Source: a virus. From it: a stretch of DNA of 42,103 nt. Made by a program: the position numbers and the translations under genes. This document shows positions 2,120-22,788 of this stretch, in pieces. The DNA is taken from IMG/VR virus record IMGVR_UViG_3300017963_000416, positions 1 through 42,103 of that record, one strand, 5' to 3'. Each line of letters starts with the position of its first letter. The stretch's first letter is position 1. The notes under the pieces are model-generated. The model saw only the letters and a program-made list of their open reading frames with translations. It was not told where the DNA came from and searched no databases.

Positions 2120-2199
2120 GGTTTCGTCTCCGACTTCTCCTTGTGTGTTTACGAACCGCCCTCACGCAGCCAGGCCGGGGGCGTGTTCGGCCCCGCTCG

Positions 2200-2655: not shown

Positions 2656-2724
2656 GACTGTCCTCCTTCATGGTGACTCAGAAACAGCCCGCAGCGTGTA
2701 TGTCAACGGGCTCCAGGCCCGGGA

Positions 2725-5402: not shown

Positions 5403-5404
5403 CG

Positions 5405-6133: not shown

Positions 6134-6170
6134 TGTTCAGTCCTCGATTGTGTGCGTCGCTTCCCGGTCC

Positions 6171-6488: not shown

Positions 6489-6522
6489 GGCGTTCTCCTT
6501 TGCTCAGGCCGCGCTGCGTACG

Positions 6523-7431: not shown

Positions 7432-7629
7432 GGTCTTCTCCTTTCGTGCTGCCGCGTGCGCTCCCCCCGGACCATAGCCTCCGAGGGGCCAGCTCGCGGC
7501 ATGTGCGAGCCAGTTGTACGCCTGCCTGCCTTACGCGCGTTCAGGCCGCAGGTCCACCGGCCCGGGGTGCCCACCCGGGCCGGCTCGACGTGCGGCATTA
7601 GGCACATCGACTTCCAGGGGGAGGAAGGT
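7432..7629 (-). other. 198-bp intergenic stretch with a perfect hairpin
   Basis: No convincing gene. A perfect 10-bp inverted repeat (arms CCGGCCCGGG/CCCGGGCCGG at 7557-7566 and 7574-7583, 7-nt loop) lies downstream of the paralogue gene ending at 7630. On the minus strand it is not followed by a U-run. It may weaken transcription or protect the upstream mRNA. A possible in-frame Arg-rich ORF through the gap looks like chance translation of GC-rich DNA. Confidence 0.5.
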
Positions 7630-8274: not shown

Positions 8275-8314
8275 GCTCAGTCCCTCCTTTCAAGGGTTCC
8301 GGTTGCGGGACGCG

Positions 8315-8938
8315 CTAGCTCCAGACGTCCCAGTGGATGACATCCCCCGCGACGGGGTCCGTCCCGCCGTTGAAGTCGACCTGCAAGTACTCGCCGTCGA
8401 TCGTGACCAGCGAGTCGATGAACCGCTGCGCCCCGGCCGACGTCCTGCACTGCGCTTGGAAGACGTCGGGCGACAGCAGGCCCGTGTGGATCCGGATGTT
8501 GCCGGCCGCCACGTCGAGCGCGGTGACCGTGTGCTTGCCGCGGCCGTGCGAGATGTTGCTCTCGTTCTCGCCGCCGGTCATCACCGCGCCGCTGATGATG
8601 TTGGCGCCCGTCATGGTCGTGGTCAGCGCCACGCCGCCGTCCGGGTAACCGTTGGCGTCCGCCTCGAGACGGACGGTGGCGCTGTCGATCGGGTCGATGG
8701 CAGCCGTGACCGGCGTCGTCGGCTTGTTGGAGTTGATGGCGTTGCGGAGGTTGAGCGCCGACGTGGCCGCGTCGCCCCCGATGGTGACCTCCACGTTGCC
8801 GGGGGTCACGCCGCCCGCGCTCTCCCACTCGTAGGTCTTGTCGCCGATCGTGATGAGCATCGCGTCGGCCAGGGCACCGTTGTTGCCGATCTGGACGGCC
8901 CCGATCAGCCTGCCGCCGTTGAAGAGGATCCTGCCCAT
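8315..8938 (-). CDS. Structural paralogue 1 of a tandem pair (beta-rich phage protein)
   Basis: A 207-residue protein starting at 8938 with an AAGGAG site, four bases or fewer from the portal gene. It carries the IGDKTYEWES...VTIGGDAATSALNLRNAIN module and the VRLEADANGYPDGGVALTTT segment, all repeated in the next gene. The tandem arrangement points to a gene duplication followed by divergence. It probably forms part of the virion; no enzymatic motif is visible. Confidence 0.65.
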   Translation of the reverse strand: MGRILFNGGRLIGAVQIGNNGALADAMLITIGDKTYEWESAGGVTPGNVEVTIGGDAATSALNLRNAINSNKPTTPVTAAIDPIDSATVRLEADANGYPDGGVALTTTMTGANIISGAVMTGGENESNISHGRGKHTVTALDVAAGNIRIHTGLLSPDVFQAQCRTSAGAQRFIDSLVTIDGEYLQVDFNGGTDPVAGDVIHWDVWS

Positions 8939-8941
8939 GCC

Positions 8942-10447
8942 TCACTCCTTGAAAGGTTGTCCTTCCTCACCGCCCTCGTCGCTGCCCGGAAGCTGGCCGC
9001 CCTCCAGCAGTGCGGCCTCATCGTCGGGCGTTGGCTGCAGCTCGTTGTCGCCGAAGACGCCGGCATTGGGCTCCGGCTCGGGCTCGACGGTCCCGGCCAT
9101 CTCCTTGAGCTCGTCGGCCGACTTCTTCGGGATCTCCAGCTCGTCGAGGATCCCGTCGCTGTCGATCACGTCCGCCAGCTTCACCTGCTTCCCGCCCAGC
9201 TGCATGGCCTCGGCCTGGAGCAGGTTGGCGAGCAGCTCCTTGAGCATGTCGCGCTGCGAGGCCGAGAGGCCCGCGATCTTCAGGCGCGTGTTGCTGCTGT
9301 CGACGGCAGCCTGGCCGTAGTTGAAGCGCACGATGTCGTCGACCACCTGGGGATTGCAGACCTCGTCGACCCACTCGTTGAGGATCATCTCCAGCGAGCC
9401 GGCGAGCGTCTCGGCATGGACGACGGCCTCCGCCTTCGCCCCGACGGTGCCCGTGGTGCCGGCGCGGTCGGTGATCCACAGCGCCCGGGCGATCTGCACG
9501 TCCAGGGCGTCCAGCCTGGCCTGCAGCATGTCGCCCCGCTTGTCGTCCATCAGGAACTGCGCGTCCCACAAGTAGTCGCCCTTCCGGTTGCGGAGGTTGG
9601 GCAGCATCATCAGGCCGCCCGACCGAAGCGCGAGGTACTGGTCGGTCATGAACTGGAAGCCGCACGTATCCTTGCCGCCCTTCTTCACCGTCGGCGCCGG
9701 CCGCCCCATCATGGGCGGGTCGGCTTTGCGCTCGTAGTAGCGGTTCGCGTAAAGGCTGGTCACCGCCTTCCACCACCAGGGCTCGTAGCACTGGTTGAGG
9801 ATCGGGTACCCGGTCAGCTCGCCCCACACGTCCTGACGCCGGAAGGACCAGAGCGCGGCGTTGGCCTTGCCGACCTTGACGTTCTGCCCGTCGCTGCGCG
9901 TCTGCTCGATGCCCGCCCACTCGTCCTTCTGCTCGTCGATCAGGAAGGTGATGGTCTCGTGCGGGATCGCGCGGAACTTCTCGATGATCCACGCCATCGG
10001 GTGGCCCGTCTTGATGGGGTCGCCTATGCGCTGGTCGCGCCGCTCCGTCTCCACGCTCTTCGCCTTCCAGACCTTCTCGATGACCTGGTTGCCGAAGGGG
10101 ACGGCCAGCGTGCCGGCCAGCGCGAGCTGGCGATAGGTGGGACGCAGGACGTGCTCGACGAACGCGGCGATCTCCGGGTCGCGGCTCTCGACCGACCACT
10201 TCATGTTGATGACAGGCGCGCGCAGGATCGCCAGCGCGAATGCGACCTGGGGATCGTCGCGCATCAGCTTCCGCGTCTGGTGCGTGACGAGACGGGGATT
10301 GAAGACGCCGAGCTGCTCGTACCGCTCGCCGTACTCCGTGGCGCATGCGGGCAGCTGCGACAGCTGACGCCCCTCCATCGGGGCTTCGTTCTGGACGGGT
10401 TGAGGCTCGTCGGCTGCGAGCCTCTGTGGACGCCGGCGACGCGCCAC
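8942..10447 (-). CDS. Portal protein, Mu gp29-like (DUF935)
   Basis: A 501-residue protein matching the DUF935/Mu gp29 portal family. It has an N-terminal DDPQVAFALAILRAPVINMKW segment, then SVESRDPEIAAFVEHVL, FGNQVIEKVW and CYEPWWWKAVTSLYANRYYE. It continues with LDALDVQIARALWITDRA and a long Glu/Pro-rich, probably disordered C-terminus. Portals form the dodecameric ring through which DNA enters and leaves the head. The start is a GTG at 10447, overlapping by one base the TAG stop of the large terminase. Placement next to the terminase and minor head protein agrees. Confidence 0.85.
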   Translation of the reverse strand: MARRRRPQRLAADEPQPVQNEAPMEGRQLSQLPACATEYGERYEQLGVFNPRLVTHQTRKLMRDDPQVAFALAILRAPVINMKWSVESRDPEIAAFVEHVLRPTYRQLALAGTLAVPFGNQVIEKVWKAKSVETERRDQRIGDPIKTGHPMAWIIEKFRAIPHETITFLIDEQKDEWAGIEQTRSDGQNVKVGKANAALWSFRRQDVWGELTGYPILNQCYEPWWWKAVTSLYANRYYERKADPPMMGRPAPTVKKGGKDTCGFQFMTDQYLALRSGGLMMLPNLRNRKGDYLWDAQFLMDDKRGDMLQARLDALDVQIARALWITDRAGTTGTVGAKAEAVVHAETLAGSLEMILNEWVDEVCNPQVVDDIVRFNYGQAAVDSSNTRLKIAGLSASQRDMLKELLANLLQAEAMQLGGKQVKLADVIDSDGILDELEIPKKSADELKEMAGTVEPEPEPNAGVFGDNELQPTPDDEAALLEGGQLPGSDEGGEEGQPFKE

Positions 10448-12108
10448 TAGAACATCCTCCCGGGGTGAACGTCTCTGCTAAAGATTCTATGACCGCTCTC
10501 GATCAATTTGTCAACACTGAAATCGGGAATTCCTTCGTCCATCGCTTCCGGATCCTTCCGCACCTGCCACGCGATCGCCCACGCGAAGATGGAATCGTCG
10601 AGGCATCCCTCTGCCGCCATGTACTTCTCCTCGTCCCGGCTGAGCTTGAACGACAAGCACTCCTGGAGCAGCACCATGTCGCGCACGGGCATCTCGCGGT
10701 TCTGGATCGCCTTGCGAAGGTCGCCGAGCATCAGCGGCCGCGTGCGTCCGTCCGTCCTCCACCCCGGCTCGTCCGACTTCTTTCCCGTGGCGTAGTTCCC
10801 GTGGCAGTAGAGCTCCGGGTAGTCGACCGTGTTGATCAGCGTGTTGAGGACGGAGTGGCCGTGGTTGTTCTGCTCGACGCCGACCATCGCATCGTTGTAG
10901 TGCTTGCCGATCTGCGCGATCAGCTCGCCGAAGACCTCGGGCTTCCAGCGGCCGCGGAGCACGGCAACCTGCTCGCACGTCTCACAGTCCAGGACGGCCG
11001 CCACCGACTCGTGGCCGACGGGGCTGCCGCCGGCAGGGTCTGCACCGATCACGTAGTTCCTGCCCGGTACCGGCCGCGCGTAGATGACGAGCTCGCCGCC
11101 CGTGTTCGCGCGGTGCCCTGGGATCTTGCGGACCTCGATGGGGCCCGCCGCGCCCTCGCTGATCAGCTTCTTGATGATGTCGACGTCGAAGTACCCCTGG
11201 CCGAGCGTGAGGAACGCCGTCTCGAAGTCCTCCAAGTACTCCTGAGGGAACAGCACCGAGTCGCCGCCCACGTACATGTCCACGTGCTTCTGCCGGCGCC
11301 AGGCGATCTGCTCGGGCGTCAGCCCGTGCTTCGCCACCAGGTCCTTCTCCTCCTCGGTGTAGTTCTTCATCAGCGTCTCGCGCTGGTCGCGCGTGAGCGC
11401 CATCACGTAGCTCGGGTCGTGGAACCAGGGGATCAGGATCAGGTTCCACGGGCCCTGGCCCTTGCGCGCGTCGTCGCAGAGCTGGTGGAAGAGGTTGCCC
11501 ACGCCGTTCGCGGTGGACTCGAGCGTGACGCTGCCATGCGAGGCAGCCTCGGTGAGACCGGCCAGCAGCCCGCGCTGCGCTTCCAGGTCACCAGGTGAGA
11601 AGGCGACCTCGGACCAGTGGACGCGGTCGAGCGTCTGGCTGCGGGAGGGTGCGCGGCTGCCGGCCGTAGCGATCGAGAAGAGGGAGTTGGTGCGCGCGAA
11701 ATTCAGGTCGCGCTTCGAGTGCGGGGCCAGGCGGCGCGGCTTCATGCCCGGCTGGTTCTTCTCGTAGAAGAGGTTGGCGATCCGGAAGATCTTCTCCGTG
11801 TGCGGGATGTCGTGGGCCAGCGTCACGACCTCCCGGTTCTTCCGCGCCGACGTCCAGTAGAAGTTCAGGCCCTGCTCGAGCGTGGTCACGCCCATACGCC
11901 TGGCCTTGAGCACCAGGTTGCGGGGGGCCTGCCGCGGCCGCCGCTCGAGCGCCGCCCGCTTCTGGCTGAGGATCTGGTTCTGGACGTGGTTGAGACGGAA
12001 GGGGATGACCTGGGACTCGACGTCGCGGATGTGCAGGAAGGTGGGGATGTAGACGCGGGGATCGCGGAACGCCGGAAGGAGCTCGTCGATCTTCTTCTGG
12101 CTGATCAA
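10447..12108 (-). CDS. terL: Terminase large subunit
   Basis: A 553-residue packaging motor. It has a deviant Walker A at residues 67-76 (LKARRMGVTT, Lys at the beginning as in the KARQLGFST group). A Walker B-like segment ends at SE 166-167 (LDRVHWSEVAF) and a coupling motif ESTANG lies at 197-202. The RNase H-like nuclease has candidate metal ligands D357 (VIGADPAGG), E412 (MVGVEQNNHG) and D504/D505 (DDSIFAWAIA). Residue numbers are counted by eye. The start is a TTG at 12108 that overlaps the small-terminase stop (TTGA). It pumps and cuts DNA at the portal. Confidence 0.92.
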   Translation of the reverse strand: MISQKKIDELLPAFRDPRVYIPTFLHIRDVESQVIPFRLNHVQNQILSQKRAALERRPRQAPRNLVLKARRMGVTTLEQGLNFYWTSARKNREVVTLAHDIPHTEKIFRIANLFYEKNQPGMKPRRLAPHSKRDLNFARTNSLFSIATAGSRAPSRSQTLDRVHWSEVAFSPGDLEAQRGLLAGLTEAASHGSVTLESTANGVGNLFHQLCDDARKGQGPWNLILIPWFHDPSYVMALTRDQRETLMKNYTEEEKDLVAKHGLTPEQIAWRRQKHVDMYVGGDSVLFPQEYLEDFETAFLTLGQGYFDVDIIKKLISEGAAGPIEVRKIPGHRANTGGELVIYARPVPGRNYVIGADPAGGSPVGHESVAAVLDCETCEQVAVLRGRWKPEVFGELIAQIGKHYNDAMVGVEQNNHGHSVLNTLINTVDYPELYCHGNYATGKKSDEPGWRTDGRTRPLMLGDLRKAIQNREMPVRDMVLLQECLSFKLSRDEEKYMAAEGCLDDSIFAWAIAWQVRKDPEAMDEGIPDFSVDKLIESGHRIFSRDVHPGRMF

Positions 12109-12569
12109 GGGAGCAGCTCCCCCTTGTCGTGGGCGTCGAGGAAGTCCTTGGGCTTCTGGTGCTCCACGACCTTGGACTTCACGTGCTTGGCGCCGCTGCC
12201 GTTCTTCCCGTTCTTTCCGTTCTTGCCGTTGCGCTTGCCCTTCACGTGCAGCGTGATGTCGATCTCCTTCATGCGGGCCAGGGCCCGCTCGAGCAGCTCC
12301 TCGTACGACCCGCCCTCAGGACCGCCTAGCTCGATGGGCTCGAGGCGGTCCCACATCACCCGGAGCACGTGCGCGTTGCCCTTCAGGACCTGGACGATGA
12401 TGGCATCGACGATGTGCTGGGCCACCGTCTTCTTGCTGCCCTCCCGCTTCTTGTCCAGGGCCTCGCGCAGCAGCGACGTCAGCGAGCGACCAGGTGGGCG
12501 CCCCTTCGGGTTGCCCGACTGGCCAGGCTTGAACGGTCGCAGGTTGGCGAGGCTCTTTTCCGACGGCAT
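12105..12569 (-). CDS. Putative small terminase subunit (DUF5681-like)
   Basis: A 154-residue protein starting at 12569. The N-terminal FKPGQSGNPKGRPPGRSLTS motif is the hallmark of the DUF5681 family, which is regularly found directly before terL and is taken to be a small terminase or DNA-binding packaging protein. A helical centre is followed by a basic tail with three GKN repeats (about residue 115) and many Lys residues. Its stop overlaps terL by 4 bases, and its ATG overlaps the methyltransferase stop (TGATG). I infer the role from motif and position. Confidence 0.75.
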   Translation of the reverse strand: MPSEKSLANLRPFKPGQSGNPKGRPPGRSLTSLLREALDKKREGSKKTVAQHIVDAIIVQVLKGNAHVLRVMWDRLEPIELGGPEGGSYEELLERALARMKEIDITLHVKGKRNGKNGKNGKNGSGAKHVKSKVVEHQKPKDFLDAHDKGELLP

Positions 12570-13927
12570 CAGATCACCACGCCCTTCCGCTTGAGGTTGA
12601 CGGCCTTCTTGTCCGTCTGGCGCTGCCAGCGGTCGACGATCACGTCGCAGTAGGCGGGGTCGAGCTCGAGCAGGAACCCGCGCCGGCCGAGCTGCTCGCA
12701 CGCCATCAGCGTGGAGCCCGAGCCGCCGAAGAGGTCCAGCACGTTCTCGTTGGGTCTGGACGAGTACTCGATCGCGCGGCGTGCCAGCTCGACGGGCTTC
12801 TCCGTCAGGTGGACCATCTTGTTCGGGTTGACCTTCTTGACCGTCCAGACGTCCGGGATGTTATGGGGGCCGTAGAACTTATGGGGTCCGCCCGCACGCC
12901 AGCCATAGAAGCACCACTCGTGGTTGCCCATGAAGTCCTTGCGGGTCAGCACGGGGTGCTCCTTCACCCACACGATCCCCTGGGAGAAGTACAGCTCCGT
13001 CCCGTTGAACGCCGCGGCGTAGTTGAAGAAGTTGGAGTAGCCACCCCAGATATAGAACGCGCGGCCTGGAGCGAGCGCGTGCGAGAGCTGAAGGAACCAG
13101 TTGTGAAGCTTCTCCGCGAACTCCCGGTCAGAGATGAAGTCGTTCTCGAGGGGGCGGTCCTTGGCACGCATCTGCTTGTGCGTGGCCTTCGCCTTTCCGG
13201 GGTGCCGCGCCAGGTCGAGCTGCTGGTGGTGTAGAGCTGCTCGGCGCTTCTTGTCCGGTGTGTATGAGGACACGCCTGCCGATATGGCGTTGTTCGATCG
13301 AGGCTCCACCCGGACGTTGTAGGGCGGATCCGTGTTGACCAGGTGGATCACCGCCCCCTCGAGCAGCACGAGTAGGTCGTGCGCGCTCGAGGCATCCCCG
13401 CAGATGAGACGGTGCGACCCCATCTGCCAGACGTCCCCCCGCTTGGTCGCGGCCTTCTTCGGGGGCCTGGGGGCCGGCGCTTCCTCGTGGACCTCGTTGC
13501 CGTTGCCGAGCGTCCGAATGATGGTGTTGATCTCCTTCTCCGTGAAGGCCAGCGTCGACTCGATGTCCACGCCCTCGGCCGCCAGGGACTTCAGCGTGGC
13601 TTCGAGATCCCTGCCGTCCCATAGCGCCAGCTCGCCCGTGCGGTTGTCGGCGATCGCGTACGCCCGGGCGTCAGCCTTGCCCGAGCTCTCGAAGTAGGCG
13701 ACCGCCAGGCTCTTCCAGCCCAGCTTGCGCGCCGCTCTGAAAGTACCGTTGCCAGCGATGATGCGTCCGTCCCTCAGCGCCACGATAGGCTTCTGCTGAC
13801 CGAACGTCTTAAGCGACGTGGCGATCGCCTTCAGGTTCCGTTCGTTGTGCCGGCGCGCGTTCTTCTTGTCTTCGTGCAGACCAGCAATGGGACGCACGAG
13901 CTTCTGGAGGGACGTGCTGATCTTCAT
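12569..13927 (-). CDS. ParB-like domain fused to beta-class DNA methyltransferase
   Basis: A 452-residue protein starting at 13927 with AGAGG upstream. Residues about 15-80 form a ParB/Srx-like domain (IVALRDGRIIAGNGTFRAAR). The methyltransferase part has motif IV DPPYN (200-204) before motif I DLFGGSGST (398-406), the order of the beta class, plus TEKPVELARRAIEYSS. It probably methylates adenine-N6 or cytosine-N4 in a short site. In many phages this fusion sits directly upstream of the terminase genes, as here. It may protect the genome from host restriction or mark DNA. No cognate endonuclease gene is visible. Confidence 0.85.
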   Translation of the reverse strand: MKISTSLQKLVRPIAGLHEDKKNARRHNERNLKAIATSLKTFGQQKPIVALRDGRIIAGNGTFRAARKLGWKSLAVAYFESSGKADARAYAIADNRTGELALWDGRDLEATLKSLAAEGVDIESTLAFTEKEINTIIRTLGNGNEVHEEAPAPRPPKKAATKRGDVWQMGSHRLICGDASSAHDLLVLLEGAVIHLVNTDPPYNVRVEPRSNNAISAGVSSYTPDKKRRAALHHQQLDLARHPGKAKATHKQMRAKDRPLENDFISDREFAEKLHNWFLQLSHALAPGRAFYIWGGYSNFFNYAAAFNGTELYFSQGIVWVKEHPVLTRKDFMGNHEWCFYGWRAGGPHKFYGPHNIPDVWTVKKVNPNKMVHLTEKPVELARRAIEYSSRPNENVLDLFGGSGSTLMACEQLGRRGFLLELDPAYCDVIVDRWQRQTDKKAVNLKRKGVVI

Positions 13928-13965
13928 TGAAGGGCCTCTGTTTTCGCTGGGGTGTACTGTGGCCG

Positions 13966-14000
13966 AAAAAAAACGCCGGCAGGGGTGAGCTGCCGGCGTT
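13966..14000 (-). terminator. Intrinsic terminator between the early/replication operon and the packaging operon
   Basis: A perfect 11-bp stem (AACGCCGGCAG at 13972-13982 with CTGCCGGCGTT at 13990-14000, 7-nt loop) is followed on the minus strand by a run of eight T (the A8 at 13966-13973). This is a textbook rho-independent terminator for transcripts ending at the UDG-like gene. An ATG at 14006 with a GGGAGGG site just upstream opens a frame through the hairpin, so translation could interfere with termination. Confidence 0.85.
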
Positions 14001-14039
14001 GTGCATTCGAGCGTTCCCTCCCCGGTGCGGCGTCCGACT

Positions 14040-14525
14040 CTACTTGAGCATACACGCGCGAGCAATCGTGCGCAAGTAGTCGATCGCTATCAATCTTTTG
14101 CATTCATCGTCCCACCATCGATCCGTAGGAAGTGGGAGACGAACGATAACATTGATCGACTGTTTTCGTTTCCCCTTTATTGTTTCTCTCCATACACCGA
14201 AAGGCTTTTGTTTCGCATAGCCGAACGCCCTGGCCACGCGATCGCCCAGGAGGATGCTGATCCTGTTCTTCATCAGCGGTACCAGCTTCGCCGATTCTCG
14301 CTTCGCTACTTCCGCCGGCAGTAACAGCTTCCCGCTCCACTCCCCGCAGTAGTGGGGGAGCAGGTTCCGCGTGATGACGAGCTGGTTGTACTGCTTCCGG
14401 TTCAGCTTCATCGCCCCCGCCAGGAAGCCACCTATCTTCCCGACGTAGCCCAGCTCCGTCTTGTCCCGGCTGTTCGGTCCCTCGCCGATCACCAGGATCT
14501 TGACTATAGGTCCTTTCCGTTTCAC
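14040..14525 (-). CDS. Uracil-DNA glycosylase superfamily-like protein
   Basis: A 161-residue protein starting with GTG at 14525 (GTGA overlap with the RusA-like stop). The opening ILVIGEGPNSRDKTELGYVGKIGGF resembles the GE.PG..E...G.PFVG.AG motif of family 4/5 uracil-DNA glycosylases, and VITRNLLPHY fits the following N...R.P-type strand; LMKNRISILLGDRVARAFG resembles the later helix. Some usual catalytic positions are replaced, so activity on uracil is uncertain. It is the last gene before the intrinsic terminator and shares an operon with the Holliday junction resolvase. Confidence 0.55.
   Translation of the reverse strand: MKRKGPIVKILVIGEGPNSRDKTELGYVGKIGGFLAGAMKLNRKQYNQLVITRNLLPHYCGEWSGKLLLPAEVAKRESAKLVPLMKNRISILLGDRVARAFGYAKQKPFGVWRETIKGKRKQSINVIVRLPLPTDRWWDDECKRLIAIDYLRTIARACMLK
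14047..14075 (-). promoter_or_regulatory. Weak candidate promoter for the packaging/head operon
   Basis: On the minus strand TTGCGC (14075-14070) is followed after 17 bases by TATGCT (14052-14047). The -10 matches four and the -35 three of six consensus bases. It lies in the end of the UDG-like gene and upstream of the terminator, so transcripts would have to pass the hairpin. Offered only because a start for the next operon is otherwise not obvious. Confidence 0.22.
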
Positions 14526-15025
14526 TTGCCCCTCCTTCCAAACAGCTGTTCGTCACCCTCCTGCCTCTCCCATATCTCGAAGTGTACGCGCGGGTTGTCG
14601 CGGTCGACTTCGCGCCATATGTTCTTGTGCCAGAACGCCCTATCGTTCTTCACCACGCCCGCCTTCTGTAGTGCGTCGTAGAGCAGCTCTGCGTCCAGGT
14701 CCCGTCGCAAGTCCGCCTGGTGGACGACGACTATTGCCTCGAGCTTCCCATCAAGAGGCTTGTTTCTCATCCTCCATTCCGCGGCCGCCACGTACACCTT
14801 GTCCACGAACTCGTCCGCCCCCTTCTCCTTGATGACCCGGGTAAGCATTCCGTGCATGGTCTTCACCTGCACGATCCTCCGGGAGTTGGACTTGTTCGGG
14901 AGCACGCCGTGGATGTGCCCCTCCACCAGCATCCCGCGTGATGGGTGGTCGACCCAAGAGATCGTATCCCCTCGGATCGCGGCCAGCTTCGCGCGCAGCC
15001 TGGCTTGCTGGGATTTGAAGTTCAT
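14522..15025 (-). CDS. RusA-like Holliday junction resolvase, divergent active site
   Basis: A 167-residue protein from the ATG at 15025. The C-terminal half matches RusA: QADLRRDLDAELLYDALQKA, GVVKNDRAFWHK and PRVHFEIWE, the acidic D.D...D.L...G...D pattern. RusA resolves branched DNA so that it can be packaged. Compared with E. coli RusA, the spacing after D.D is about two residues shorter, the conserved Lys (K76) is missing, and the usual DD pair reads ND. The first 60 residues are extra and basic. The gene is coupled by 4-bp overlaps on both sides. Confidence 0.7.
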   Translation of the reverse strand: MNFKSQQARLRAKLAAIRGDTISWVDHPSRGMLVEGHIHGVLPNKSNSRRIVQVKTMHGMLTRVIKEKGADEFVDKVYVAAAEWRMRNKPLDGKLEAIVVVHQADLRRDLDAELLYDALQKAGVVKNDRAFWHKNIWREVDRDNPRVHFEIWERQEGDEQLFGRRGK

Positions 15026-15210
15026 CGCTCTATCCTGATGGAGGTTACGTGCATCCCGAGGTCGCGACATACCCTGTGATTGAACTCCAGTACTGCCTTC
15101 GCCAGAGGGTGGTCGAGCCCTTTGGCTTTCAGATCGTCCGCTACGGGCAATGGCACCTCTACCCATCCCCCATAGATCTGCGTCGATACCGACGGTTCTC
15201 TTGGTATCAT
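15022..15210 (-). CDS. Small hypothetical protein in the RusA operon
   Basis: A 62-residue protein starting at 15210 with a GGGGAGG site (MIPREPSVSTQIYGGWVEVP). It contains a short hydrophobic/beta region and a helix with HRVCRDLGMHV near the end. No family recognised. It overlaps the resolvase start by 4 bases and the upstream Cys-rich gene stop by 4 bases, so it is a real, coupled member of the operon. Confidence 0.6.
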   Translation of the reverse strand: MIPREPSVSTQIYGGWVEVPLPVADDLKAKGLDHPLAKAVLEFNHRVCRDLGMHVTSIRIER

Positions 15211-15383
15211 TTGTCCTCCCCTTCGCGGACATGTTCGACAGCCTTCTCCTTTTTCCTCCTCCTCCTTTTCCCCTTGTCCTTCATCCGTTCCTCGTGCTTG
15301 TACATCTCGCACTCGGTGCGCCAGCGGCACCGACGGCAAGCGTCCCGAAGACAGTCGGGGATGCTGGCATCGTCCAGGCTCAT
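15207..15383 (-). CDS. Small Cys-rich basic protein (putative zinc knuckle)
   Basis: About 58 residues from the ATG at 15383. Four cysteines are packed in CLRDACRRCRWRTEC (residues 11-25), followed by a strongly basic segment GKRRRKKEK. This pattern suggests a small metal-binding nucleic-acid protein. Its stop overlaps the next start (ATGA), and its start overlaps the stop of the preceding frame in the same way, which supports it as a gene. Confidence 0.6.
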   Translation of the reverse strand: MSLDDASIPDCLRDACRRCRWRTECEMYKHEERMKDKGKRRRRKKEKAVEHVREGEDK

Positions 15384-15533
15384 GCGTTCTTCTCCTCCTG
15401 AGCCTTCGCATTACACGCGCAGCAGATCGCCCGGCCATCTCCCGTGAGCTCGGCCAAATGGCACGGGACCCTCCGCCGTGTCTTTTATTGCTTCTTCCCA
15501 ATGAGCCCTTGTCAGTTCTAGATCGAAAGACAT
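15380..15533 (-). pseudogene. Small gene split over two frames (natural +1 frameshift, mutation or sequence error)
   Basis: From the ATG at 15533 (GGAAGGAAA site) the frame reads MSFDLELTRAHWEEAIKDTA and stops at 15411 after 40 codons. One base ahead, another frame without a good start reads CHLAELTGDGRAICCACNAK and ends with a TGA at 15380-15382 that overlaps the next ATG exactly as elsewhere in the operon. The joined product would be about 50 residues with a C-H..CC.AC metal-binding look. The shift would occur near GGT CCC G. Whether it is programmed, a decay or a sequencing error cannot be told here. Confidence 0.5.
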
Positions 15534-15557
15534 TTTCCTTCCCCTGAATGGATGTGA

Positions 15558-15660
15558 GGGGACGACGGCCGGCGGGTGCAATTGGCTCCGGGACCACCCC
15601 GGCGCCCCGTCTGCTACACCAGGCAGTGGGATCGGAACTTTATCTACCGGCCGTCTCCCC
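15558..15660 (-). ncRNA. Candidate structured RNA element in the 140-bp gap 15534-15673
   Basis: The gap has no good gene. It can fold as a three-way junction. The closing stem is 15565-15572 with 15647-15654 (ACGGCCGG/CCGGCCGT), extended by GGGG/CCCC (15558-15561 with 15657-15660). Hairpin 1 is GGC-CCGGG (84-92) with CCCGG-GCC (98-106) around ACCAC, numbered from 15500. Hairpin 2 is CTGC/GCAG at 15611-15614 and 15623-15626. It is not a tRNA: no T-arm with a 7-nt loop and no anticodon arm. In GC-rich DNA some pairing is expected by chance, so this is a candidate only. Confidence 0.35.
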
Positions 15661-15673
15661 CCACAGGGAGCCC

Positions 15674-15976
15674 TTACTCCTCCTTCTGCCTGGCGCTGTC
15701 GTCCTTCACCTTCGCCTTCACCTCGTCCTTCCCGCGCGTGACCTGGGCCTCGTATGGACCCCGCTTGTACTTCTTCAGGTTCCGGCCCTGCATGTAGTCG
15801 AGCAGCTTCTGCTTGAGCTCGACCTCCACCTTCAGGGCCTCCATGCGGGCGTCGCGCGCATCGACGTACGCCTCGATCATATCTTCCAGCTTCGCGTTCT
15901 TCTCCGGCTCCATGCCGGCGAAGTGCTGCTGCCGGGCCTTCACCTTGCCCGGGCCCTTCGCGTCCACGTTAGCCAT
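15674..15976 (-). CDS. Small coiled-coil phage protein, unknown function
   Basis: A 100-residue protein from the ATG at 15976 with AGGAGGAG upstream. A central helix (MIEAYVDARDARMEALKVEV, then ELKQKLLDYMQ) is followed by LKKYKRGPYEAQVTRGKDEV and a Lys-rich tail. Proteins of this build (helix that ends in LL..M, short beta piece, EKVKVK-like tail) are common in phage early regions, but I know no function. It overlaps the upstream gene by 8 bases. Confidence 0.6.
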   Translation of the reverse strand: MANVDAKGPGKVKARQQHFAGMEPEKNAKLEDMIEAYVDARDARMEALKVEVELKQKLLDYMQGRNLKKYKRGPYEAQVTRGKDEVKAKVKDDSARQKEE

Positions 15977-16208
15977 GCCGGCTCCTCCTGAATGCGGGGC
16001 ACCGCCCCTGGTTTCTGAGTGTTCCGCCGAGAGCGATGATTAGCTTGCGCCTCTGCTCGGCGTCCATGTTCACAGCGAACGAAGGTAGATCGTCCAGCGA
16101 TTCGCAGATGCCGAGGTTGACGCCCGTGTCTCCGTGTCTTCGACGCAGGAGGATGCTCTTCCCATCTGCGATCACGACCTCCTTTTCGCTGAAGGCTTCC
16201 TCCCCCAT
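15969..16208 (-). CDS. Small hypothetical protein
   Basis: A 79-residue protein starting at 16208 with AAAGGGGA (MGEEAFSEKEVVIADGKSIL). A beta-rich N-terminus is followed by a helix ALPSFAVNMDAEQRRKLIIA-like segment and a basic C-terminus. No recognised family. It lies directly between the glycosyltransferase-like gene and the coiled-coil gene, in the same operon. Confidence 0.5.
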   Translation of the reverse strand: MGEEAFSEKEVVIADGKSILLRRRHGDTGVNLGICESLDDLPSFAVNMDAEQRRKLIIALGGTLRNQGRCPAFRRSRHG

Positions 16209-16220
16209 CGTGTTCCCCTT

Positions 16221-16850
16221 TCACTTGACGATGATCTGGCCCGGGGGGACGAGCGTCCCCTTACCCGGGATCTGCATACGCTTCTCCTTCCTCCGGATCT
16301 TCGAGACGTGGTGATGCCAGCCGCGCAGGAGCGGGTATGGGTTCCAGACCCGCATACCGGCGTTGATCGCCTCGTTGGCCAGGCGCCCGTCGCTGGCGAT
16401 ATGGCCCAGCTCCCAGTCGCACGGGAACGGCTTGATGGGCGAGCGGAAGATCCACGCGTCCTGCATCCACTTGCAGAGGCCCGGGTTCCTCCGGATCCCG
16501 TGGCGCTCTGACCTGGTCAGGCAGATCAGCGTGTCGTTCCAGTCGAAGAGGTCCAGCATCGCCAGCGTATGGTCGAAGGAGATGTCGCTGTTGGACACGA
16601 TGAAGAGCTCGCCCGGCCTGGTGTTGGCGAAGGCGAAGTACTGCTTGAACGTCGTCCGCTTCCCGACGTGGTGGTACTTGAAACGCTGGTCGAACAGCCG
16701 GCAGCAGCTGTCCTCGATGAACAGGTGGATCTCGTCGAGCTGCCCGCACTGGGCGTTCTTCGCCAGGGCCTCCGCGTTCTCCTGCGCCCGCACGGGATGC
16801 GGATCCACGTACAGGCCCGTCATCAGGTTCTTCCGGTGTCGCATGGTCAT
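16221..16850 (-). CDS. Putative glycosyltransferase-like protein paired with sulfotransferase
   Basis: A 209-residue protein from the ATG at 16850, coupled to the sulfotransferase stop (ATGA). It resembles GT-A-fold glycosyltransferases: an opening GLYVDPHPVRAQENAEALAK, IHLFIEDSCCRLFDQRF, then GELFIVSNSDISFD (79-93) with a NSD.SFD element in the place of the DXD motif, and MQDAWIFRSPIKPFPCDWEL. Such enzymes transfer sugars from nucleotide donors and the acidic motif binds the metal. The pair suggests that a sugar is added and then sulfated, or that both act on one glycan. Acceptor unknown; family assignment by pattern. Confidence 0.6.
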   Translation of the reverse strand: MTMRHRKNLMTGLYVDPHPVRAQENAEALAKNAQCGQLDEIHLFIEDSCCRLFDQRFKYHHVGKRTTFKQYFAFANTRPGELFIVSNSDISFDHTLAMLDLFDWNDTLICLTRSERHGIRRNPGLCKWMQDAWIFRSPIKPFPCDWELGHIASDGRLANEAINAGMRVWNPYPLLRGWHHHVSKIRRKEKRMQIPGKGTLVPPGQIIVK

Positions 16851-17521
16851 GCCACCTTGTACCCCAGGTGCTCGTTGGCCTCGCGCGTCAGCTCCGTGAG
16901 GATCTGGCGCCCGGTGCAGTCCGCGTTCTGCTGCCACGCCCCGATCCCGCCGCCGGCCATGTGGTTCCCGTGGATGTGGCTCTCGCGGTCGTACTGGCCG
17001 AAGCCCTTGTACTGCTTGGCGATCTCCGCGTTCTTCTCCTTCGAGTGCGCGGCGACGATCGCCTCCTGGCGTCCCGTGCCCTCGAGCGAAGGCATCGGCA
17101 CAATAGCGGGATTGATGTGCGCCCAGATCTGCATCGGCCTGGTCGTGAACTCCTCGTATCGGAGCATCGCGAACGTCGCGTTCCCGTACGTCTTGCTGCG
17201 CTCGTCCTCGTACCGCCGCAGGGCCTCGTACGACGGCTTCACCTCGTGCAGCCAGATCCAGTTGATCTTCTTGTGCGGGATCGGCGTGCCGCCGCCGCGG
17301 ACCAGCCAGAGGGACAGGATGCAGTCGCGCAGGTCCCGGTATGTCATCACCACCGGCACGTTCTTCTTGTCCATGTATCCGTGCGTCTTGGCGACGCCCT
17401 CCGCGAAGAGGTCGCAGAGCACCTGGTAGATGAACGTGCTGCCCGACCTGGGGATCCCGAACGAGATTACCCTGAGGTCGTCCTTCGTCCCGCGCGGGTA
17501 GAAGCCGTTCTTCGCCAGCAT
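16847..17521 (-). CDS. Sulfotransferase (PAPS-dependent family)
   Basis: A 224-residue protein with a strong AAGGAGG site before the ATG at 17521. The PAPS 5'-phosphosulfate loop is seen at residues 21-31 (FGIPRSGSTFI), a KTH motif at 45-47, and the 3'-phosphate motif TYRDLRDCILSLW at 60-72. These are the three landmarks of sulfotransferases, which move sulfate from PAPS to a hydroxyl or amine of a carbohydrate or other acceptor. Length is slightly short for the family. Sulfotransferases are rare in phages; the next gene is glycosyltransferase-like and coupled to it. Confidence 0.75.
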   Translation of the reverse strand: MLAKNGFYPRGTKDDLRVISFGIPRSGSTFIYQVLCDLFAEGVAKTHGYMDKKNVPVVMTYRDLRDCILSLWLVRGGGTPIPHKKINWIWLHEVKPSYEALRRYEDERSKTYGNATFAMLRYEEFTTRPMQIWAHINPAIVPMPSLEGTGRQEAIVAAHSKEKNAEIAKQYKGFGQYDRESHIHGNHMAGGGIGAWQQNADCTGRQILTELTREANEHLGYKVA

Positions 17522-17539
17522 AGAACCTCCTTGAGAGAA

Positions 17540-17576
17540 AAGAAAAACGCCGGGCCCGTCACGAAGCCAGACGAGC
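17540..17576 (-). terminator. Possible weak terminator before the sulfotransferase gene
   Basis: Arms at 17554-17560 and 17570-17576 can pair over 7 bp with one G-T pair. A T-rich stretch TTTTTCTTTT follows on the minus strand after about 6 unpaired bases. The spacing is poor for an intrinsic terminator, so it may only lower read-through into the sulfotransferase-glycosyltransferase pair. Confidence 0.25.
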
Positions 17577-17596
17577 TCCCGAATATCTGCACCGTC

Positions 17597-17839
17597 TCAT
17601 TCCCTGCTTATCTTGATGACCTCGGCGAATCCCCATATAGCAACGCCGGCAGCGACGACGGCGACCGCGATGAGGATCCCGTCGCACACGGTCATCCCGA
17701 CCCGGAGATCCGGTTCCCCCTCCTCGCCGTCGAAGGACTCGGCGGGAACCGGGGGGAGGATGATGTCGGACTCCGCCTGGATCGGGAAGAGAGAGACGAC
17801 GGCGGCGAGAACAATCACAACGGGGCTGAACGCTTTCAT
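17597..17839 (-). CDS. Small exported membrane protein
   Basis: An 80-residue protein from the ATG at 17839 (MKAFSPVVIVLAAVVSLFPI). The N-terminus looks like a signal peptide or TM anchor with a possible cleavage site after FPIQA. An acidic middle (AESFDGEEGEPDL) leads to a second hydrophobic segment GILIAVAVVAAGVAIWGF at about 54-72 and a short Lys/Arg tail. It probably sits in the host membrane. In phages such early small membrane proteins often act in host takeover or exclusion, but this is only an inference. Confidence 0.6.
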   Translation of the reverse strand: MKAFSPVVIVLAAVVSLFPIQAESDIILPPVPAESFDGEEGEPDLRVGMTVCDGILIAVAVVAAGVAIWGFAEVIKISRE

Positions 17840-17880
17840 CGGGATTCCCTCAAATAGAGATTTAAGAAAATATGCTTTCC

Positions 17881-18093
17881 CTAAGAAGCCATGTAGTAGG
17901 TCGGGTGGAGCAGGTTCATCTTCCGCTCGTCGCACATCCGCTGCTGCTCCGTGCTCATCTTCTCGTAGAGACCGGTCAGCTTTTGCCCGCACACGGGACA
18001 GCCACAGGGCAGGTTGCTGACCTTCACCTGGCCCATCGAGCAGTAAAAGCAGCGCGCCCACTCCGGCTCCCGCGGCGTGCTTCCTGGGACCAT
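17881..18093 (-). CDS. Small zinc-ribbon-like protein
   Basis: A 70-residue protein starting at 18093 with AGGGAGA (MVPGSTPREPEWARCFYCSM). Two CxxC pairs, CFYC and CPVC (in LPCGCPVCGQKL), form a zinc-ribbon pattern. The helical C-terminus is KMSTEQQRMCDERKM. Function unknown; it is one of a large group of small Cys-rich proteins in this region. Confidence 0.6.
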   Translation of the reverse strand: MVPGSTPREPEWARCFYCSMGQVKVSNLPCGCPVCGQKLTGLYEKMSTEQQRMCDERKMNLLHPTYYMAS

Positions 18094-18348
18094 TGTTCGT
18101 TCTCCCTATATTCTGCGAAAGCCCGCCGGGAGGGATGGACTCCCGGTCGGGTACTCTCGCTAGTCACTGTGGCCTCTGGCCCGTGATCCCCTTCGGCAGA
18201 CGCTCCACGCCGCTGCGCCATCCACGCATTGTGTGTCCCCCGTACAGCGTCCATGAGATAGGGGGACGGCATAACCACGCCTAAAAGGGGTCGCCATTGG
18301 CCTTTCAATAGGGTTATCGCGTTTTCGCGCACTATGGTTAGAGTGCGC
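18094..18348 (-). other. 255-bp intergenic stretch with several hairpins
   Basis: I see no convincing gene. Structures: GCGCACT/AGTGCGC (18327-18333 with 18342-18348, 8-nt loop) directly after the stop at 18349; CGCG-TTTT-CGCG (18318-18329); and a GC hairpin CCCG.CGGGAG/CTCCCG..CGGG (about 18122-18151) just upstream of the next gene. None has a U-tract. Two small frames (45 and 21 codons, starts about 18290 and 18229) have weak sites and look accidental. Confidence 0.45.
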
Positions 18349-18519
18349 TCACCGCATCCCTGGAAGCAGATGATCCGGTAACGTGTGGATCGGGTTCGTC
18401 AGGTAGCGATCCCACAGAAATTGAAGATTGGCTTTCAACATTTGACGACATGAAGATTTGTCTAGCGCCCGGATTGCGTTTTCGAGCGCCACTACGTCTC
18501 TATCGCGCTTCCGTGCCAT
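18349..18519 (-). CDS. Small hypothetical protein
   Basis: A 56-residue protein with a very good AAGGAGG site before the ATG at 18519 (MARKRDRDVVALENAIRALD). Predicted helical and basic with one Cys (KSSCRQMLKANLQFLWDRYL). A longer frame starts at 18552 but would place the good site inside the gene. No family recognised. Confidence 0.6.
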   Translation of the reverse strand: MARKRDRDVVALENAIRALDKSSCRQMLKANLQFLWDRYLTNPIHTLPDHLLPGMR

Positions 18520-18535
18520 AACTTCCTCCTTCTGG

Positions 18536-18796
18536 TTATAGCTGCCGTTCATTCAACCGCTTCACTTCGGCTCTCAGCCGCAGGATCTCCGCGCGCAGGA
18601 TCGGGACGCAACTGCAATGATCGACGCGGAATCCGGGCGCTTGCGGACACGGCTCATCCCATCCGCCCTCTGCGAGCCTAAGGCATTCCAGATGGCCGTC
18701 GAGCTTTGCCTTCAGCTCGTCGCGTTCCTTTTCGAGCGTGGCGTAGCAAGAGAAGCAGGGCGTTAGCGTGCCGCTGCAGCTCGGGCATCCGTCCAT
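18536..18796 (-). CDS. Small Cys-rich coiled-coil protein
   Basis: An 86-residue protein from the ATG at 18796, with AGGAGG upstream. It opens with CPSCSGTLTPCFSCYATLEK, two CxxC motifs typical of a zinc finger, then a helix KERDELKAKLDG, further cysteines (CLRLAEGGWDEPC, DHCSC) and a terminal leucine-rich helix ILRLRAEVKRLNER. Probably metal-binding with a coiled-coil end. Function unknown. Confidence 0.6.
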   Translation of the reverse strand: MDGCPSCSGTLTPCFSCYATLEKERDELKAKLDGHLECLRLAEGGWDEPCPQAPGFRVDHCSCVPILRAEILRLRAEVKRLNERQL

Positions 18797-19468: not shown

Positions 19469-20202
19469 CACGCCCTCCTCTCGACGCCGAGCGCGTCGAG
19501 CGCCTGCCTGAACGCGCGCCAGAGGTTGAGCTGCACGGTGTCCTGGTCCACCTGGTCGAGAATGTGGCCAGAGACGAAGGGCCGATCCGTGGCGCTGAGA
19601 TAGTCGTGGTACTTGAACTCCGGCTCGCTCGGCGCCTTGTGCAGCTCGCATTGCACGTTGTAAGACTCGGCGACGATCGCCGCGTGGAGGGAGCTGGTCA
19701 CAACCAGGTTGGCCTGCGCGATCGCATCCACGATCTCCAGGTTGAATCCCTTCCTGACGTCGAGGATCGCGGCGCGGGGCCACCGATTGATGAGGCTAGG
19801 CACCAGCTTCGAGTCGTGCATATGGGGGACGACCACGATAGAGTCCAGGAAGACCCGCTGCGGCCGGTGGAATCTGCCGATGAAGATTCCCGGATCTCCA
19901 AAGACACGCGGGCACGGGAGTCCGCGCTCCCGCATCTTCGCCCAGGTGAGTTTGCCGCGCACGGCCGTGATGACCAGAGGGCGCGTGACCGGCTCCGTCT
20001 GGTTCCAGGCGCCGGCTCCCCACACGACGTCGCCGGCCCTGGCGTGTGCCATGATGGACCCCTGCGCGACGAGCGCCGGGGCGTCAACCGTTCGACCGCT
20101 CTCCTTGAGCTGGACGCCTTCCGATGCGAGCAGATGCTCGATGAGCCACGGAGACATCTGGTCGCCGAAGTTGCTCACGATATCGTAGTAGCGCAGTCTC
20201 AT
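19468..20202 (-). CDS. Polysaccharide pyruvyltransferase-like (ExoV/CsaB family) protein
   Basis: A 244-residue protein from the ATG at 20202, coupled to the helicase-loader stop (ATGA) and preceded by GGAGG. It shows the family landmarks NFGDQMSPWLIEHLL (11-25), VVWGAGAW (59-66), AVRGKLTWAKM (80-90), GDPGIFIG (102-109), VVVPHMHD (123-130) and VTSSLHAAIVAESYNV (168-183). These enzymes add a pyruvate ketal from phosphoenolpyruvate to sugars of capsule or cell wall glycans. It is shorter than cellular members, as usual for ExoV-type proteins. Its place in a phage replication operon is unexpected. Confidence 0.7.
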   Translation of the reverse strand: MRLRYYDIVSNFGDQMSPWLIEHLLASEGVQLKESGRTVDAPALVAQGSIMAHARAGDVVWGAGAWNQTEPVTRPLVITAVRGKLTWAKMRERGLPCPRVFGDPGIFIGRFHRPQRVFLDSIVVVPHMHDSKLVPSLINRWPRAAILDVRKGFNLEIVDAIAQANLVVTSSLHAAIVAESYNVQCELHKAPSEPEFKYHDYLSATDRPFVSGHILDQVDQDTVQLNLWRAFRQALDALGVERRA

Positions 20203-20957
20203 CTCTTCCTCGCCTCCTTTCGTCGATCGCGCCCCTCGAGCTTCACCGTCTTGTACTCCAGGAAGCGCGACGCCAGGCGCGGATCCTGATCCTGGATCCG
20301 GGCGTAGGACAGGTTTGTGGTGACGAGCGTGTGCCGCCTCAGTTCTCCCCGCGCGTCGAGGATGTCGTATATGAGCGAGGCAGCCCGGTCGGTCGGGTTC
20401 TCCGCCCCCAGGTCGTTGATGACCAGGTAGGGTACCTCCTCGAGCCATCCTACCACGTCCAGCTCGCTTTCGCGCCGCTTCGAGAAGGACGCGTTGATCT
20501 CCAGGATCAGCCGCGGGGCCCGCGTCCACTTGATCCTCCGCACGTGCCTGGCGACCTCCCTGCAGACGGCGGCTGCCAGGTGCGTTTTGCCGATCCCCGG
20601 CGGCCCCGTGATGATGACATCGTCGGGGGCCCCGGCCCAGGCCGCGTCTCGCGTGGCCTTCGGGAAGTCTGCCAGCTTGGCCTCCCGGTACTTCGGCGGG
20701 ACCGCCTCCTCGAACCGGCGCAGGCGCATCAGATCCACGAACGCTCGATCGCACTCAGCCTTCCCGCACGTTCGCATCAGGCGCCGGCCTATTGAGTAGG
20801 CCACCTGCGAGGTCGTGCAGATGGGGCAGTTGATGCCCGAGCCCGTCGGCGCCCCGCTCGTCTTCGTCCGGTCGATCTTCAGGCCCATCGTCCGGAAGAT
20901 CTCCCCCAGGCTCTGCTCCGGGGTCCATGCTTTCTTCTGTTGGGAGTCCGGGGGCAT
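20199..20957 (-). CDS. DnaC/IstB-like AAA+ helicase loader
   Basis: A 252-residue protein. An N-terminal zinc-like region (CPICTTSQVAY, CGKAEC at about 44-69) is followed by the AAA+ core: Walker A GPPGIGKTH (118-126), Walker B YLVINDLG (177-184) and sensor-1 like LVTTN (about 216). In phages it replaces lambda P or host DnaC and places the replicative helicase at the origin. The start at 20957 (GAGGACATCGACA before ATG) lies inside the upstream initiator gene, whose frame stays open for another 203 bases. The two genes are read in different frames. Confidence 0.82.
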   Translation of the reverse strand: MPPDSQQKKAWTPEQSLGEIFRTMGLKIDRTKTSGAPTGSGINCPICTTSQVAYSIGRRLMRTCGKAECDRAFVDLMRLRRFEEAVPPKYREAKLADFPKATRDAAWAGAPDDVIITGPPGIGKTHLAAAVCREVARHVRRIKWTRAPRLILEINASFSKRRESELDVVGWLEEVPYLVINDLGAENPTDRAASLIYDILDARGELRRHTLVTTNLSYARIQDQDPRLASRFLEYKTVKLEGRDRRKEARKR

Positions 20958-21828
20958 TGTCGATGTCCTCGAATTTGCCGTCGTCCACTTCCGCGCCCCG
21001 GGCCACCGCCGGCCCGCAGGGCTTGTCCAACCACCGCCGCTCGTTCAACCAGGTGGCTGCGTACGGGATGAAGTAGATCTCGCTCTGCGATCGCGGGCGG
21101 AGCGGGCCCCGCTTCTGTTCGGCAAGGGACCGCAGGATGGTCTTCAAGAGCTCCGGGTTCTCCTGGCCGTGGAAGAGGCGCCGCCAGGCAATCCGGGCCC
21201 GATGCTCCGCCGTGTGCCTGGGGTACGCGGACCAGAAGGTATCGAATCCCGTGGGGTCCTGTTCGCCGTCCCATGCAGTGGCTGACTTTTGAGCCACCCT
21301 CCTGCGTGTACTCTTACTCTTCTTGTTAACTATAATTCTTGTTTGTGGTAACTTTTGAGCCACTCCGCGGCCCGTATCTGAGCCACTGGTGGTTGACTTT
21401 TGAGCCACGGGGGGTGGATCAGATTTGAGCCACCCGCCCTGGTTTTCGTAGTTCACGGCCGTCTGGTAGTAATCGAACTTGACGATCGTGAAGATCGAAT
21501 AGTTGTCCTTCTCGACTACCCGCATGAAGGGCACGCCGTCGTCTCCTACCAGCTTCAATCGGTCGATCGACTCTCGCAGCGAATTGCGGCTGACGTTTGC
21601 TACGGCCGCCAACCGCCTATGCGATGCGACGAACTGACCTCGATCGATCTGAATCCCGCACCATTCGCGGGGCTCGTGGTTTGCCAAAAGCATGCAGGTG
21701 ATGCCGACGATCCGATCGACGTGGTTCTGCTGCCAGAGGGATGAATTCAACATGCGGCGAGCAAGGTAGACGTACCCGCCCTCGATCTGTGGACCGTCAA
21801 GGTCGAGGAGGTCTTCCTGCTCAGGCAT
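20755..21828 (-). CDS. Replication initiator, lambda-O-like, with winged-helix domain
   Basis: A 357-residue frame starting at 21828 with GGGGGAGG upstream. The N-terminal half holds a helix-turn-helix/winged-helix domain (RRLAAVANVSRNSLRESIDR, about 71-90), as in phage O-type and DnaD-like initiators. A linker with VAQKS repeats follows (about 139-182), then FDTFWSAYPRH...RIAWRRLF...YAATWLNERRW, the C-terminal motif common in such proteins for loader binding. The last 68 codons overlap the helicase-loader gene and look like its shadow, so the functional end may be near 20950 or a stop may have been lost. The linker DNA carries the iteron-like repeats. Confidence 0.75.
   Translation of the reverse strand: MPEQEDLLDLDGPQIEGGYVYLARRMLNSSLWQQNHVDRIVGITCMLLANHEPREWCGIQIDRGQFVASHRRLAAVANVSRNSLRESIDRLKLVGDDGVPFMRVVEKDNYSIFTIVKFDYYQTAVNYENQGGWLKSDPPPVAQKSTTSGSDTGRGVAQKLPQTRIIVNKKSKSTRRRVAQKSATAWDGEQDPTGFDTFWSAYPRHTAEHRARIAWRRLFHGQENPELLKTILRSLAEQKRGPLRPRSQSEIYFIPYAATWLNERRWLDKPCGPAVARGAEVDDGKFEDIDNAPGLPTEESMDPGAEPGGDLPDDGPEDRPDEDERGADGLGHQLPHLHDLAGGLLNRPAPDANVREG
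21278..21433 (+). repeat. Iteron-like repeats, candidate replication origin inside the initiator gene
   Basis: Four copies of a 19-20 bp element with dyad ends GTGG...CCAC lie at 21278-21297, 21345-21363, 21389-21408 and 21414-21433. Read on the minus strand, the best copy is GTGGCTCAAAAGTCAACCAC. A half copy ending in GAGCCAC lies at 21375-21386. An AT-rich stretch (about 21308-21344) separates the first two. The copies occupy three different reading frames of the gene, so they are conserved as DNA. Lambda and relatives keep their origin inside the O gene in the same arrangement. Confidence 0.7.
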
Positions 21829-22019: not shown

Positions 22020-22532
22020 CTATCTGCGCTTTTTCTTTCCCTTGCCCCGCGGCGCCGCCGGGGGCGGGGGTGCCTGGGGCTGGACCGGGACGCCGGGCAG
22101 GTCCACGTCCGGGTTCGCAGGATCGTCCGCCTCATGCCGTTGCTGCTCCTGGCGCTGCTCCATCCGCTGCTCGGGGGGCGCCGGCTCCTCCGTCGTCTCC
22201 CCGGGCTTCACCGTGGCCTTGATCTGTATGAAGCCGAAGGGCTTGCCGTCGTGGTCCTTCACGATGCACTTCAAGATCTCGATGCTCTCGACACGCCCCT
22301 CCTTGGCCGCGCGCCGGGCCCGCGGTGCGTGCTCGCGGGGGATGTAGCCGACGTGGAGCTGCTCGCCCCGGATCTCGGCGATCACCTTCACGGCGTTCGG
22401 GTCGTGCAAGTTGCCGTCCTCCGGCTGGAGGTACAACCGGACCTGGTCGTTGGCGTCGAGCGCGTTGCGCAGCTGGGTGACGTTCGCCAGCCGGAAGCTG
22501 CAGCCGGCGACCTTGATAAAGACCGTGCCCAT
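22020..22532 (-). CDS. HIRAN-domain protein
   Basis: A 170-residue protein from the ATG at 22532 with AGGAGA upstream. Residues 1-95 carry a HIRAN-type core: TVFIKVAGCSFR, VRLYLQPEDGNLHDPNAVKV, and QLHVGYIPREHAPRARRA (the DPNAV...GYIP signature). HIRAN domains recognise unusual DNA, such as 3' ends at stalled forks. The C-terminal 75 residues are Gln/Glu/Pro-rich and end in a basic GKGKKKRR tail, probably disordered. Nothing shows a nuclease or helicase fused to it. It is the last gene before the replication promoter. Confidence 0.7.
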   Translation of the reverse strand: MGTVFIKVAGCSFRLANVTQLRNALDANDQVRLYLQPEDGNLHDPNAVKVIAEIRGEQLHVGYIPREHAPRARRAAKEGRVESIEILKCIVKDHDGKPFGFIQIKATVKPGETTEEPAPPEQRMEQRQEQQRHEADDPANPDVDLPGVPVQPQAPPPPAAPRGKGKKKRR

Positions 22533-22563
22533 CGCGTCTCTCCTGAATGGTTTCCGAAAAAGG

Positions 22564-22788
22564 TTAGCACTCGCACTGGTCGCTAAGTGCCATGAATGCC
22601 GCGACAAAACTGCCCGGGGTCGGTTGCTTGTCGCGATCGTGAACATAGACGACGACTTGCCAGCCGTGCTTACGGAGGTCGTCCGCTTCCTTGTCGTTCA
22701 GGCCTTTCGGGTTCAACGAGACGACCTTGTGCTTCCGCTTCGCGTTCGCCCTGATCCGGGTCAGGGAACAGTGATTGCATTCGCCCAT
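22564..22788 (-). CDS. Small Cys-containing protein
   Basis: A 74-residue protein (MGECNHCSLTRIRANAKRKH) with a CxxC near the start and CEC at the very end. A middle beta-helix piece (DDLRKHGWQVVVYVHDRDKQ) could bind a ligand. No family known to me. It sits between a HTH protein and the HIRAN protein in the early operon. Confidence 0.5.
   Translation of the reverse strand: MGECNHCSLTRIRANAKRKHKVVSLNPKGLNDKEADDLRKHGWQVVVYVHDRDKQPTPGSFVAAFMALSDQCEC

Follow-up and report, generated by a model that had tools for sequence, protein, structure and literature searches.

Replication origins that lie inside the gene of an initiator are an arrangement already known from phages such as lambda and SPP1. 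In the Bacillus phage SPP1, gp38 binds the direct repeats of oriL within gene 38, beside an AT-rich DNA unwinding element (DUE) (PMC6316719), and in plasmid pSK41 the N-terminal winged helix of Rep binds Rep boxes inside rep, with the central linker of the protein being encoded by the ori itself (PMC5703833). In phage lambda, whose ori served as our positive control, gene O (38686-39585) has four O-binding iterons marked in its sequence record, at 39034, 39054, 39078 and 39101. Their O offsets of 348, 368, 392 and 415 place them in frames 0, 2, 2 and 1 at spacings of 20, 24 and 23, in agreement with the statement in a preliminary description of the locus studied here that lambda-type phages keep iterons within O.

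The DNA analysed (the window) is a 42,103-base IMG/VR virus record, a linear metagenomic contig from an uncultured phage with an AT content of 35% and nearly all genes in the same direction. Judged by sequence and by analogy, it is best read as carrying an intragenic origin of the lambda/SPP1 type. It is, to our minds, highly likely that the theta replication origin of this phage sits within its own initiator gene, in the part that encodes the linker, where a repeat cluster, an AT-rich neighbour, constraint at the DNA level and an adjacent loader gene come together.

The gene in question (20755-21828, minus strand) encodes a 357-aa protein identified as an initiator (replisome organizer) through PHROGs matches, an AlphaFold2 model and viral Foldseek matches. 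It matches phrog_270 (replication initiation, 4e-14, spanning residues 138-282) and phrog_2514 (DnaD-like, 5e-13). The winged-helix DNA-binding domain that had been proposed for it is modelled confidently at residues about 15-122 (pLDDT mostly 85-97; coding positions 21463-21786, minus strand), with a helix-strand pattern that ends in a two-stranded hairpin (102-115). There follow a predicted disordered linker (residues about 126-190, encoded by 21259-21453, minus strand) with pLDDT mostly below 50 at residues 130-168 and 179-188, and a C-terminal domain (residues about 190-270, FDTFWSAYP...WLNERRW, encoded by 21019-21261, minus strand) with pLDDT mostly 78-92, dipping to 55 near residues 241-250. 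At 0.41 the overall pTM is low, which is normal where a flexible linker joins two domains. In Foldseek, many of the top viral structures carry the annotation replisome organizer. A fold search of the PDB gave weak winged-helix matches only, among them 4pql, 4pt7 and 5kbj, which are described as initiator or Rep-DNA complex and at E about 0.1 are not significant. By profile match and by its order of winged helix, linker and C-terminal domain, the protein fits the phage replisome organizer class. Hence, the earlier label of an O-like initiator stands as regards the initiator (phrog_270/phrog_2514) yet not as regards the lambda O family (PF04492/phrog_277), which is absent from the Pfam and PHROGs matches up to E=1. 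For lambda O itself, the match to phrog_277 is at 1e-152 and that to phrog_2514 comes mainly from its C-terminal part (residues 96-297); on sequence grounds, the window protein and O are not closely homologous. Nor does it match Pfam RepA_N up to E=1, a difference from RepA_N plasmids such as pSK41, which it otherwise resembles in having a winged helix for boxes in mid-rep, an ori-encoded linker and a C-terminal recruitment domain (PMC5703833).

The next gene downstream adjoins that of the initiator and codes for a DnaC/IstB-like AAA+ helicase loader of 252 aa (20199-20957, minus strand; phrog_50, 3e-34; PF01695, 1e-13), in agreement with the DnaC-like neighbour described before; its N-terminus carries a CxxC...C...C stretch. 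The two ORFs share 203 bp (20755-20957) in different frames, and the initiator end that falls inside this overlap is predicted to be disordered. The overlap may be genuine, a run-on ORF or the result of a frameshift. Directly upstream of the initiator lies a gene for a HIRAN-domain protein (22020-22646).

Within the initiator gene, the decamer GTGGCTCARA has five exact matches, which are the only ones in the 42 kb record and are confined to 146 bp (21288-21433, minus strand), at 21424-21433, 21399-21408, 21377-21386, 21354-21363 and 21288-21297. All five fall in the coding region of the predicted disordered linker, between the two folded domains. A pattern search of the record recovered the four GTGG-N11/12-CCAC elements and the one half copy that had been noticed at first reading, the former at 21278-21297, 21345-21363, 21389-21408 and 21414-21433. 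The half copy exists but had been placed at 21375; it is GTGGCTCAGA at 21377-21386 on the minus strand. In gene order, and all on the minus strand, iteron 1 (21414-21433, GTGGCTCAAATCTGATCCAC) is in frame 2 and reads WLKS, iteron 2 (21389-21408, GTGGCTCAAAAGTCAACCAC) is in frame 0 and reads VAQK, iteron 3 (21367-21386, GTGGCTCAGATACGGGCCGC) has a degenerate right arm, is in frame 1 and reads SGSDT, iteron 4 (21345-21363, GTGGCTCAAAAGTTACCAC) is again in frame 0 as VAQK and so is iteron 5 (21278-21297, GTGGCTCAAAAGTCAGCCAC), which has perfect 6-bp inverted arms and lies 66 bp past iteron 4. The offsets of the copy starts from the ATG (395, 420, 442, 465 and 531; frames 2, 0, 1, 0 and 0) bear out the three VAQK copies and the two in other frames that had been described. 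Successive copies are spaced by 25, 22, 23 and 66 bp.

Over lengths of 30-50 bp, the record is at its most AT-rich between copies four and five. The stretch of about 37 bases that had been noted between the first two copies by coordinate is real, with 76% AT at 21320-21356, and ranks first in the record at window sizes of 37, 40, 45 and 50 bp and joint first at 30 bp. Taken over 50 bp, the candidate DNA unwinding element (21307-21356) has 72% AT, again rank 1, and is purine-rich on the gene strand. Cumulative GC skew, which had been suggested as a check, shows no turn at the repeat site and is uninformative there, nearly all genes pointing one way.

Side by side with lambda ori, the likeness extends to iterons that occupy all three frames of the initiator gene (at intervals of about 20-24 bp in lambda and of 25, 22 and 23 bp in the window), inverted arms around a CTCAAAA core, an A-rich tract that follows immediately on the 3' side in the direction of the gene, and a loader gene directly downstream of the initiator. 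The arms differ, however, being GTGG/CCAC in the window and TCCC/GGGA in lambda, and the window, unlike lambda, has a fifth iteron beyond the AT tract. Its initiator matched no Pfam family of lambda O either, and its loader is a DnaC/IstB-like AAA+ protein and not annotated as P. The seven-base core common to both may be convergence. SPP1 oriL (gp38, gp39, gp40), compared by its description, shares the intragenic direct repeats, the AT-rich DUE and a separate loader (PMC6316719), but SPP1 has a second origin, oriR.

The cluster is beyond chance. GTGGCTCARA, seen five times, is expected 0.13 times in simulated sequence of the record's composition, and the cluster is the only one of its kind in the record: no other 9-mer reaches at least three copies per 170 bp anywhere in the 42 kb, and of 60 first-order Markov simulations 58 gave no such cluster, two gave one of three copies and none gave four copies. 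The loose GTGG-N-CCAC pattern by itself, with five matches against 1.7 expected across the record, is weak evidence; the strong signal is the common GTGGCTCAAA half. Repeat statistics that tolerate mismatches are weaker for the window (p 0.02-0.08).

Could the repeats simply reflect the protein? A repeated VAQK peptide, or coding sequence recently duplicated in tandem, the DNA itself playing no role, would account for the three of five copies that are in frame and read VAQK. Two copies lie in other frames, though, and the spacers vary in sequence and in length, not all being multiples of three. Permuting synonymous codons within the gene reached the observed counts of exact 8- to 11-mers in 0 of 300 trials each, so these counts exceed what protein-preserving codon shuffles produce. 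Moreover, re-encoding with the codon usage of the phage would retain GTGGCTCA with probabilities of 0.10, 0.015, 0.0007, 0.015 and 0.015 per site; for the 8-bp core to survive at all five together, the probability is about 2e-10, this being the product of the five per-site values under the assumption that codons are independent. Retention is low because GCT (4% of Ala codons), CAA (8% of Gln), TCA (6% of Ser) and AGT (2.5% of Ser) are rare in the phage, and such rare codons are used precisely at the repeats, at four of the five sites. Between them, codon shuffles and recoding agree with the earlier claim that protein-level selection alone is insufficient: the repeats are constrained at the DNA level, independently of the peptide, and an origin of the pattern in the protein or in duplication is extremely improbable.

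Carried over from the lambda, SPP1 and pSK41 systems, a mechanism for the window phage may be envisaged in which the initiator, probably as a dimer, would use its winged helix to bind the 20-bp iterons with their inverted arms, and several bound initiators would bend and wrap the DNA so that the AT-rich tract beside them melts. The DnaC-like product of the next gene could then load host DnaB helicase at the melted tract, with the C-terminal domain of the initiator as the likely contact for loading. The linker would accept whatever peptide the iterons spell, and such tolerance would explain why copies can occur in all three frames. By this analogy, we infer that binding, melting, loading and initiation take place at the window site. 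The proposal of an origin within the initiator gene was supported by every informative sequence test that we ran, the comparison with lambda ori included. A point against it is that the spacings (25, 22, 23 and 66 bp) do not fit the helical period exactly, in addition to the mismatch-tolerant statistics and the missing skew turn given above.

Autoregulation by initiators is common in plasmids and clusters of binding sites can serve regulation, so one may ask whether the initiator binds inside its own gene as an operator that represses or paces transcription, with replication starting elsewhere. Yet the sites are about 400-550 bp into the gene, far from any start, they adjoin the most AT-rich tract of the record in a layout that matches lambda ori, and the record has no second clustered repeat that could act as origin. 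We therefore regard an operator as unlikely. The intragenic origin, in turn, names a likely replication start and the protein acting there for this phage.

Distant homologues offer a wider view of the linker. An alignment search gave 80 viral loci, from which 88 initiators (not all of them independent) were scored and 70 non-redundant genes were used for periodicity. Of the 88 initiators, 32 have more exact 9-mer repeats spread over two or more frames than codon shuffles give (p<=0.01); among other ORFs from these loci the figure is 3 of 320. The same statistic is positive for lambda O, with 9-mers as well as with 12-mers allowing two mismatches, but gave no multi-frame repeat signal for rep of TP901-1; therefore, the method misses some initiator genes. 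Even so, protein-preserving codon shuffles combined with frame scatter make phage origins findable from sequence alone, with about a third of distant homologues passing as compared with about 1% of other ORFs at the same loci. Past the winged helix, self-similarity in the 70 genes peaks at lags of 11, 22-23, 33-35, 44-46 and 56 (z of 53 for lag 11 against 40 shuffles), and it is due to this period of 11 bp that the frame rotates from copy to copy. Some 80-120 bp beyond the winged helix, the AT content goes up by about 13 points.

These homologues also bear on whether the window sites belong to another DNA-binding protein, be it a host factor or a ParB-like partition protein. The record does encode a candidate, the product of 12569-14065, in which a ParB-like N-terminal part is fused to a DNA methyltransferase part. 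However, repeats inside the linker of an initiator are what one sees with initiator binding sites, and the homologues carry repeat words of their own, distinct from those of the window, at the corresponding position, which makes a foreign binder very unlikely and again favours sites for the initiator itself. Relatives among the phrog_2514/phrog_270 organizers (for instance those of Vibrio phage 1.135.O and of locus L021) share a homologous winged helix and have repeats in the same linker, C-terminal domain homology being seen for some only. They differ from the window, with its 20-bp inverted-arm units about 22-25 bp apart, in that their units are phased 11-bp repeats of other sequence and are accompanied by copies in the codons of the wing.

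In these relatives (L021-L100), the wing copies lie in helical phase with the linker array, about 40-80 bp ahead of the point where the winged helix ends. Linker words of a given phage match its own wing-coding stretch 211 times against 50 expected from the wings of other phages, the largest of 5000 permutations being 103. Codon shuffles give an expectation of 66 and a largest value of 88 in 60 trials. At least one wing copy occurs in 50 of 70 phages, and between -80 and -41 from the winged-helix end the matches amount to 50-89 per 1000 positions, compared with about 0-13 elsewhere outside the array, including zero at -40 to -21. Lags from wing to array show a period near 11.5 bp, and projected onto a single model, that of the window protein, the copy positions would map to the wing hairpin at residues about 98-110. 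In the window itself, we found no wing copy matching at least 7 of 10 bases at gene positions 200-395. We lean slightly towards the view that in the wider family each phage repeats a private 11-bp iteron in its wing codons, in phase with the linker, and that wing and iteron change together; on that reading, held with the same narrow preference, the DNA that encodes the reading head would be the very sequence read by it. Alternatively, the wing copies may stem from concerted spread of a repeat from wing into linker instead of having a binding role. If functional, they would tie the specificity of the initiator to the sequence of the origin within a single stretch of DNA, helping to explain how private specificities are kept and why replicons move as single cassettes. 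The wing copies, which the window lacks, may be the most novel part of our analysis, and the open papers that we searched (key reviews lay outside that search) contained no description of them.

Neither a search of viral contigs with the exact iteron pattern nor one with the initiator, the loader and one neighbouring gene as queries identified a close relative of the initiator, and a search of GTDB genomes with the initiator gave none either. For most large proteins tested in the window genome, family matches are absent. The terminase as query returned two contigs (L103, L104) that are 99.7-99.9% identical to the window; they cover positions 536-18673 only, with the initiator outside, and, coming from other samples, they indicate at the sequence level that the phage recurs. 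A neighbouring gene led to six further contigs at 40-49% identity, in which neither a detectable homologue of the window initiator nor the GTGGCTCAAA array was seen and of which L105 only has a match to the loader. L105 carries an array of 18-bp tandem repeats (GGTATCCGGCGCGGCCCA) at 20365-20487. Elsewhere, Pseudomonas phage Pacha_bin_1 (L013) has four copies of AACGGGGTGCA in a gene annotated as primosomal protein I (967-1806), three of them 22 bp apart and in three frames. In L109 (5467-5545; also in L110), three CCGCTTGAGGGTCCG repeats, at distances of 34 and 23 bp, occupy different frames of another, unrelated-looking 393-aa gene next to an AT-rich stretch, and by sequence this is another candidate intragenic origin. 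Finally, Dulem virus 31 (L012, PP511318.1) is labelled Microviridae, yet has 35.8 kb and a replisome organizer gene, so its taxonomy line looks wrong.
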